Source of the DNA: Sphingomonas sp. Leaf407
Lineage (GTDB): Bacteria > Pseudomonadota > Alphaproteobacteria > Sphingomonadales > Sphingomonadaceae
DNA: 64,000 nt
Reading direction: 5' to 3'
Assembly (NCBI RefSeq): GCF_001425385.1
Contig: NZ_LMQO01000001.1
Location: 1,216,833-1,280,832, forward strand
In this document: piece by piece, positions 6,821-8,000 of the stretch
Numbering within the stretch: position 1 is the first letter of the stretch
Layout of the letters: every line of letters starts with the position of its first letter
Made by a program: the position numbers and the translations under genes
The notes under the pieces: model-generated
What the model saw: only the letters and a program-made list of their open reading frames with translations
Database searches by the model: none
Told to the model about the DNA's origin: nothing

Positions 6821-7495
6821 ATGATGAGCGTAGTGCGTACCCTGGCCGTGGCCGTTGCCACAGCCGTTGCCGTCGCGGCGACCCCGGCGTCGGCCCAGTT
6901 CTTTCTCAAGCCCTATGACACCAGCGGCGAACGGGTGACGGGCGCCGAACCCGGCATCGCGACCCAGGCCCTGCCCGGCGCCACGCCCGAGGAATTGCGC
7001 GCCGCGCTGATGTGGAACCTGCGCGCCGGGCTGAACGTCGCCGCGCTCCAGTGCCAGTTCGAGCCGTCGCTCCTGACGCTCGGCAACTACAACGCGCTGC
7101 TCTTCAACCATGCCGACGAATTGAAGAAGGGCTATGACACGCTCGGCAAATATTTCGTCCGCACCGCCGGGTCGGCAAAGGCCGGGCAGACCGCGCTCGA
7201 CCAGTTCGGGACGCGGGTCTATTCGGGCTTCTCGACGGTATCGGCGCAGCTCGGCTTCTGTCAGGCGGCGGGTGAGATCGGCCAGGAAGCGATCTTCGTG
7301 CCGCGCGGGTATCTGGGTGAGTTTGCCGAGATGCGGATGCGCAAGCTGCGCAATTCGCTGGTGGCGTATGGCGAGCAGCAGTTCGGCCGCAACGTCAACT
7401 GGATGCGCCCGGTGCGGCTGTACGAGTTCGGCAACCCGAAGTGCTGGCGCAAGGGCCTGTGGCAGGTGAAGCGCTGCGGTGCCTTCCCGTCCTGA
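6821..7495 (+). CDS. Conserved-looking secreted protein of unknown function
   Basis: A 224-residue protein with a Sec signal peptide (MMSVVRTLAVAVATAVAVAA..PASAQ, cleavage predicted after ASA). The mature protein is soluble and contains four or five cysteines, including LQCQFE, GFCQAAGEIGQE, NPKCWRKGLWQVKRCG, which would suit disulfides in the periplasm. The start at 6821 has a GAGAGG ribosome site about 6 bases upstream; the much longer frame from 6407 overlaps the lipoprotein gene and is a shadow. The family is not recognised by name. Confidence 0.8.
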   Translation: MMSVVRTLAVAVATAVAVAATPASAQFFLKPYDTSGERVTGAEPGIATQALPGATPEELRAALMWNLRAGLNVAALQCQFEPSLLTLGNYNALLFNHADELKKGYDTLGKYFVRTAGSAKAGQTALDQFGTRVYSGFSTVSAQLGFCQAAGEIGQEAIFVPRGYLGEFAEMRMRKLRNSLVAYGEQQFGRNVNWMRPVRLYEFGNPKCWRKGLWQVKRCGAFPS

Positions 7496-7507
7496 ACGGC
7501 TGTTTGA

Positions 7508-7527
7508 AAACGCGCCGAAGCGCGTTT
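7508..7527 (+). terminator. Possible terminator hairpin after the secreted-protein gene
   Basis: AAACGCGC-CGAA-GCGCGTTT is a perfect 8-bp stem with a CGAA loop, 12 bases after the stop codon. Only three T residues end it, so termination would be weak. Confidence 0.45.
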
Positions 7528-7586
7528 CCCAATGGCATCCAGCGATAGCGAGTCGCACGTTTTCCAAGAAATATGCGATTTTTCCG

Positions 7587-7611
7587 GGAACCATCCGACC
7601 AACCTGCCGTT
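7587..7611 (+). promoter_or_regulatory. Consensus sigma-EcfG (general stress response) promoter
   Basis: GGAAC at 7587-7591 is followed after exactly 16 bases by CGTT at 7608-7611. GGAAC-N16/17-CGTT is the known alphaproteobacterial EcfG/SigT consensus. The predicted start (about 7617-7620) falls at the first base of the first hairpin of the putative small RNA. Confidence 0.75.
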
Positions 7612-7617
7612 GTGCCC

Positions 7618-7775
7618 TGTGGATAGCGAATTCAAGCCCCCCCGCTCTCGCTATCCAAGACAAAGGGTCCGGTCGGCGTGATCCCCTCCCCCCCCCGGTA
7701 GCGCCACCGGACCCGCATTCTGGTTTCCATCCTTTCGAGCCCGTCAGTTCCCCCAACTGGCGGGCTCAATTTTTT
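7618..7775 (+). ncRNA. Putative stress-induced small RNA with three C-rich loops (GsrN-like)
   Basis: No plausible protein is encoded here, but the stretch folds into three hairpins. Hairpin 1: TGGATAGCG (7620-7628) with CGCTATCCA (7649-7657), loop containing CCCCCCC. Hairpin 2: GGGTCCGGT (7665-7673) with ACCGGACCC (7706-7714), loop containing CCCCTCCCCCCCCC. Hairpin 3: GAGCCCGTCAGTT (7737-7749) with AACTGGCGGGCTC (7755-7767), loop CCCCC, followed by AATTTTTT, a Rho-independent terminator. All loops are anti-Shine-Dalgarno-like. A consensus EcfG promoter ends 6-9 bases upstream. The Caulobacter sRNA GsrN is also sigma-EcfG dependent and pairs with mRNA leaders through a C-rich loop; whether this is a homologue or an analogue is inference. 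Confidence 0.7.
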
Positions 7776-7799
7776 GATGCGGCGATGCGACACGCAGCC

Positions 7800-7824
7800 G
7801 GAACGAAACCGCAGGCCGGACATT
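7800..7824 (+). promoter_or_regulatory. Degenerate sigma-EcfG-like promoter before the entericidin gene
   Basis: GGAAC at 7800-7804, a 16-base spacer and CATT at 7821-7824, one mismatch from the CGTT -10 element. It lies about 40 bases before the entericidin-like start codon. Confidence 0.4.
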
Positions 7825-7865
7825 CCTTGCGCACAGCAAAAGTACCGCAATCAACGGAGACATCT

Positions 7866-8000
7866 ATGCGCAAGATCATCAGCCTGGCCGTCGTGGCCGG
7901 CGCACTGGCCATCAGCGCCTGCAACACCGTCGAAGGCGTCGGTCGCGACGTGTCGTCGGCGGGCGATGCGGTTGCCGGCGCGGCGAAGGATTCGAAGTAA
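7866..8000 (+). CDS. Entericidin A/B-family small lipoprotein
   Basis: A 44-residue lipoprotein: MRKIISLAVVAGALAI, lipobox ISAC, then NTVEGVGRDVSSAGDAVAGAAKDSK, the typical entericidin pattern of NTxxGxGxDxxxxGxAxxxAA. Entericidins are stress-linked membrane lipoproteins; EcnB was described as a bacteriolytic toxin with EcnA as antidote, but single copies in alphaproteobacteria have no proven toxin role. The ribosome site ACGGAGA precedes the ATG. Only one copy is present. It follows a degenerate EcfG-type promoter and ends in a strong terminator. Confidence 0.85.
   Translation: MRKIISLAVVAGALAISACNTVEGVGRDVSSAGDAVAGAAKDSK

Follow-up and report, generated by a model that had tools for sequence, protein, structure and literature searches.

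An EcfG-type promoter precedes a conserved RNA with C-rich loops in the Sphingomonadaceae, a likely small RNA of the general stress response

The locus described here lies in a stretch of 64,000 nucleotides of Sphingomonas sp. Leaf407, referred to below as the window, and all of its features are given on the + strand. An exact EcfG-type promoter, GGAAC-N16-CGTT, occupies positions 7587–7611 (GGAAC at 7587–7591, CGTT at 7608–7611) and directly precedes a non-coding segment, as the original prediction had proposed. Folding of this segment gave hairpin 1, the 5' hairpin, at 7620–7657, with seven C in its loop at 7637–7643; hairpin 2 at 7665–7714, with the loop CCCCTCCCCCCCCC at 7683–7696; and hairpin 3 at 7737–7767, with the loop CCCCC at 7750–7754, which together with a TTTTTT tract at 7770–7775 extends over 7737–7775. 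All three C-loop hairpins were present where they had been predicted. They are followed by a second stress-type promoter, GGAAC-N16-CATT, at 7800–7824 and by a gene for a lipoprotein of the entericidin EcnA/B family at 7866–8000 (PF08085, 30.6 bits against a cut-off of 23.3).

The region 7618–7774 has a minimum free energy of -71.6 kcal/mol compared to a shuffled mean of -43.5 (z = -7.7), and none of 200 shuffles folded as well; with the promoter included (7587–7800) the z score is -5.7. Hairpin 1 begins 9 bases past the last base of the -10 box, and transcription would plausibly start near the first base of its stem. GGAAC-N16-CGTT occurs once in the whole 64 kb window, and 32 of 100 shuffles contained at least one such match. 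The promoter match alone is therefore not significant, and the weight of the argument rests on conservation.

Relatives of the same genus contain the segment in 34 of 36 cases, the two exceptions being genomes that are less than 85% complete, while 24 genomes that belong to other families of this order gave no match. Twenty-eight same-genus loci, aligned without the window and without being fitted to a model, form two helices in which 96.7% of the cells are paired, and their covariation score is 0.213 against 0.124 in shuffled alignments (reached by 0 of 500 shuffles). From these 28 loci, with the window and the promoter excluded, a covariance model (R1) was built. R1 matches the window at 7616–7725, the conserved family core, with 85.1 bits (E = 2.5e-19). 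Within the family it found matches at E ≤ 0.01 in 111 of 298 genomes and 40 of 96 genera, or 104 genomes and 35 genera once rejected matches below 34 bits, on which seven genomes and five genera solely rest, are removed; these counts are lower bounds because the filters were strict. In an alignment of 88 diverse sequences, window included, all 25 modelled pairs show double-sided changes (9/9 in hairpin 1 and 16/16 in hairpin 2), although this alignment was fitted to the model and the pair counts therefore lean towards it. The covariation score over the 88 sequences is 0.486 compared to 0.172 in shuffled alignments, with 0 of 500 shuffles reaching it. The stems are conserved in relatives, with the compensatory changes that the original prediction called for, and the covariance search that it suggested yielded a two-hairpin RNA family with conserved C-loops. 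The element represents an RNA family conserved within the Sphingomonadaceae, and this conservation puts it far beyond chance.

A second model, R2, built from the 88 sequences, matched 133 of 396 genomes of the order at E ≤ 0.001, weak matches included, and all but one of these belong to the same family. In a class-wide sample 12 of 385 genomes matched, strongly only in the genome under study and in one other of the same genus; outside the genus the matches in this sample were weak (best 37 bits) and had no promoter, and none outside the family was convincing. These class-wide matches outside the genus and nine family matches below 34 bits, all without the promoter, were dropped as other hairpins. 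Following up R2, seven full-length matches of at least 40 bits were obtained, with the promoter in five (L311, L307, L297, L299 and L298) and absent from L301 and L302; L310 and L300 (39 and 37 bits) have it. Two distant two-hairpin candidates, L308 and L316, carry GGAAC-N-NGTT displaced upstream by about 10 nt relative to its place in the family. Two genomes each contain two diverged promoter-bearing copies (L310 and L116 in G065; L079 and L131 in G284), and therefore paralogues exist. A pattern scan of titled genome contigs returned at least 120 stretches. Among the matches listed, 75 of 80 titles name sphingomonads and the other five carry no such name; those named include Sphingomonas, Sphingosinicella, Stakelama, Hephaestia, Pacificimonas, Parasphingopyxis, Sphingorhabdus and family- or order-level MAGs. 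Because the promoter was part of the scan pattern, these matches do not test it.

R1 was built without the promoter, and the sequence upstream of its matches could be examined separately. All 30 same-genus loci, the window's own included, have GGAAC-N16-NGTT (25 CGTT, 4 TGTT and 1 GGTT), located 47–50 bases ahead of the conserved C-run. A further 109 matches were examined, 100 of at least 40 bits and nine below 34 bits; the 100 include four from the same genus, one genome contributes two, and neither the R1 matches in G290, G265 and G082 nor the R2 follow-up matches are counted among them. GGAAC-N16/17-NGTT was found 28–32 bases before the model start in 99 of the 100 stronger matches, compared to 138 of 294,650 control windows from the same loci and strand (about 0.05%), and in none of the nine weak matches. 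Across the 99 sites most spacer positions hold little information, the box letters being fixed by the search pattern, and GGAAC is followed by C in 88. A near-consensus EcfG promoter directly upstream, one of the features of GsrN-type RNAs, is thus found in the window, in the same genus and across the family.

The C-rich loops are equally a property of the family. One locus (L027) is cut off within the RNA by the end of its contig and for that reason was left out of the alignments and of the loop counts. Loop 1 contains a run of at least six C in 128 of 129 RNAs, mostly C6 to C9, and loop 2 a run of at least four C in all 129, with CCUCCCCCC-like sequences; the mean predicted probability that these runs are unpaired is 0.89 and 0.97, respectively. 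In 104 of the 129, the C-run of loop 1 is preceded by TTG or ATG and followed by GCTC. The loops had been proposed to be anti-Shine-Dalgarno sequences, and this gained no support: the anti-Shine-Dalgarno core CCTCC is found in 83 of 129 RNAs only, and in the first half of just nine, whereas the C-run itself is conserved. Five loci of one genus (L120, L123, L126, L127 and L128) have a diverged loop 1 (AAG-C run-TCCA), a different locus and a different downstream gene, and retain the same promoter and two C-loops.

The number of hairpins differs between the window and the family. Three C-loops hold for the window, as proposed, but not for the family, whose core has two. Of 130 loci scanned, three have a third hairpin whose loop is C5 or C6, namely the window and two loci (L108 and L110) of one other genus, and L081 has one with a C4 loop. 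Judged from the sequences compared, hairpin 3 is a lineage-specific addition of the window's species, where, together with the T6 tract, it is the probable terminator. In the relatives a T-rich stretch comes after hairpin 2, which for this reason is probably their terminator; the same stretch is degenerate in the window. The RNA is most likely about 105 nt long in most relatives and about 155 nt in the window's species, as predicted from these putative ends. An exposed 5' C-loop, a length of about 100 nt and a 3' terminator hairpin, as in GsrN, agree with the predicted structure and the covariation.

The genomic position of the RNA ties it to the general stress response locus. Among 18 same-genus relatives searched, nepR or the RNA was not found in two; in all 16 in which both were found, the two share a strand and the RNA lies 1.7–1.8 kb downstream of nepR. 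Of 70 genomes from 36 other genera that carry the RNA, 48 have nepR no more than about 3 kb away, on the same strand in 45 and on the opposite strand in three, with 3 of the 48 linkages resting on nepR matches below the Pfam cut-off. The remaining 22 have no close linkage, carry the two on different contigs or gave no nepR match. Proximity to the ecfG/nepR/phyR locus is thus a feature that the family shares with GsrN-type RNAs. The gene order in one relative (G010) is ecfG, phyR, nepR, a HisKA_2 kinase gene, the RNA, entericidin and tatC (the last named by eye), and we regard its kinase gene as PhyT-like, by comparison with PhyT of Sphingomonas melonis Fr1 as presented in the excerpts of PMC5898713.

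In the genome that contains the window, the RNA does not lie near this locus: nepR is at 175 kb and the RNA at 1,224 kb of the same contig. The ecfG, phyR, nepR and kinase genes stand about 1 Mb away from the RNA, beside queE (L366, 5621–9363; all but nepR named by eye), while the RNA is still accompanied by entericidin and tatC, between which stands an AraC-type gene. A rearrangement with a breakpoint just upstream of the RNA, around position 7500, is probable. The gene immediately upstream (6824–7495, 223 amino acids as read) occupies the place of the kinase gene of G010 and has no Pfam match at E 0.001. In five loci of one genus (L045, L048, L049, L051 and L054) the 3' part of the RNA is overlapped in antisense by a tatC-like frame, and the RNA could therefore also touch tatC mRNA in that genus.

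In 107 of 130 loci the RNA is followed on its own strand by an entericidin homologue. This arrangement is what would be expected if the RNA were the 5' leader or attenuator of the entericidin gene, its hairpins controlling read-through from the EcfG promoter. We consider such a role unlikely, since the entericidin gene has a stress-type promoter of its own, GGAAC-N15-17-NRTT, in 91 of the 107 loci (78 with CATT), compared to 34 of 7,043 control windows (about 0.5%); stress promoters of Sphingopyxis granuli include CATT as a variant -10 box, according to the excerpts of PMC7083833. Moreover, the RNA is present in 23 of the 130 loci without an entericidin gene, one of them cut by a contig end, and in 13 of these 23 a tatC-like gene, identified by eye, is convergent with the RNA or extends into it in antisense; in L002 the end of this gene is about 40 nt beyond hairpin 2, and in L083 it is 10 nt beyond the model match. 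The entericidin gene with its promoter is probably a unit separate from the RNA.

Two other readings would deny the segment a function as an RNA regulator. Terminator-like hairpins with CUCCCCCUCCCCC-type loops and no EcfG promoter do occur elsewhere in the family, in L132, L133, L136 and L138, where similar sequence (TCGGCAAGATCTAA or close) lies nearby. C-loops may be common in sphingomonad terminators, and C-loops alone are therefore not diagnostic. That the segment is a mere strong terminator for its neighbouring genes, with C-loops as a sphingomonad terminator habit, is nevertheless very improbable, given the contrast between weak matches and members of at least 40 bits in carrying the promoter and the conservation of hairpin 1, loop sequence included, ahead of the presumed terminator. 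An open frame at 7479–8000 also spans the segment, and at least one open frame is present in 122 of 129 RNAs, as happens in GC-rich DNA; but no frame is open in all members (best 93 of 129), the lengths are spread over all three classes modulo 3 and the changes in the stems are compensatory, and we give hardly any credence to the segment being part of a protein-coding gene.

The element has no gathering-score match in Rfam 15, the sole match in the window being one tRNA elsewhere. Members of the alphaproteobacterial ar14 family have anti-Shine-Dalgarno loops, and one of them is linked to osmotic stress. The model of this family (RF02344) gave a sub-threshold match to hairpins 2 and 3 (24.8 bits compared to a gathering score of 58.8) and reached 35.7 bits in one of 20 relatives, matching 2 of 21 sequences tried overall; these scores are far below the curated 58.8 and do not support membership in ar14. 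The Rfam suhB family, which we take to be RF00519, has no gathering-score match in the window and none in 7550–7850 at E values up to 5. SuhB of Sphingopyxis granuli, which appears as an entry in the reference list of PMC7083833, is likewise a sphingomonad small RNA.

The closest parallel is GsrN. Erythrobacter litoralis, which bears on the comparison, is a relative of the sphingomonads. In Caulobacter crescentus, GsrN base-pairs through its 5' C-loop to the katG leader, and KatG increases as a result (excerpts of PMC5869019). Tien et al. (2018) found homologues by BLAST in the Caulobacteraceae only and predicted further ones, including in the Rhizobiaceae, through locus position, promoter and some transcription data, with no apparent gsrN-like gene in the outgroup E. 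litoralis (same excerpts). As far as those excerpts describe GsrN, the sphingomonad RNA resembles it in its EcfG/SigT promoter, predicted length of about 100 nt, 5' C-loop (six C in GsrN) and 3' terminator hairpin. Both are usually located beside core stress regulators, the exceptions being C. crescentus itself and the genome studied here. Unlike GsrN, the RNA has a second loop that is also C-rich and, in the window, a third C-loop, and pairing with katG gained no support in the loci searched. The likeness drawn here is one of published features, and we therefore classify the element as an EcfG-driven C-loop small RNA and not as a proven GsrN. By analogy, the most likely reading is that sphingomonads have in it their counterpart of GsrN, an EcfG-dependent riboregulator. 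In this respect the original prediction of a GsrN-like general-stress RNA gains support from the promoter, the structure and the conserved C-loops.

Target searches were negative or weak, and no target is named. A G-run of at least five within -90 to +12 of katG was found in 0 of 25 loci (of 30 katG loci), with start codons assigned automatically and one locus without ATG; this search could overlook shorter sites at the tip of the mRNA. In the window's own genome G6-N3-10-ATG occurs 149 times, G6-N15-22-ATG 110 times and the reversed pattern 40 times, a spacing effect too weak to claim. The exact 10-mer complement of loop 1, GAGCGGGGGG, is rarer than its reversed control (151 versus 259 sites in 19 genomes) and exceeds it in two genomes only, G001 and G038. 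DNA comparison of 40 of the 54 GAGCGGGGGG sites outside the small RNA in six genomes revealed no shared target; seven short matches joined loci of different genomes, none of them aligned at the site.

The lack of a target, and the conservation of the letters flanking the C-run of loop 1 beyond the need of generic pairing to G-runs, would suit a real EcfG-dependent RNA that acts otherwise, by binding a protein or by titrating Hfq or another RNA. Architecture and locus, however, match those of GsrN, whose C-loop pairs with katG (excerpts of PMC5869019), and we hold a different route of action to be improbable, if worth keeping in mind. We consider it likely that the segment is the gene of a small RNA that acts in trans in the general stress response, is driven by EcfG and pairs with G-rich leaders through its C-loops. 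EcfG-RNA polymerase would initiate near 7618–7620, and the transcript would end at the terminator hairpin, presumably hairpin 2 in most relatives and hairpin 3 in the window's species. The stable hairpins would expose unpaired C-runs as seed regions, which may pair in trans with G-rich stretches of mRNA leaders, by analogy with GsrN, and this pairing would alter the translation or stability of the mRNAs, as in Caulobacter.

A more speculative extension, to which we attach a low probability, is that the RNA is multivalent, each hairpin being an independent G-run binder and lineages tuning the valency by adding hairpins. Such addition seems to have been separate in the window's species and in the genus of L108 and L110. 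If the RNA were multivalent, it would act less by regulating a single target than by broadly braking or buffering, under stress, mRNAs whose ribosome sites are rich in G.

EcfG, NepR, PhyR and PhyT are well-studied parts of the sphingomonad stress response, and a post-transcriptional arm is absent from the literature searched. That search, by titles and the beginnings of abstracts and mostly of open-access papers, returned no EcfG-dependent small RNA of sphingomonads. The main text of the Fr1 transcriptome paper (PMC6599016) contains none of the terms sRNA, non-coding and intergenic, PMC5898713 does not use the term sRNA, and in PMC7083833 there is no mention of sRNA or small RNA and the term non-coding occurs in the reference list only. 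Genetic manipulation is on record for two sphingomonads, Sphingomonas melonis Fr1 and Sphingopyxis granuli. Located shortly downstream of nepR in most relatives examined, the RNA is a candidate for the post-transcriptional arm of this response. It also suggests a design general to the alphaproteobacteria, an EcfG-driven C-loop RNA encoded near the stress locus whose sequence is little conserved from one order to another.
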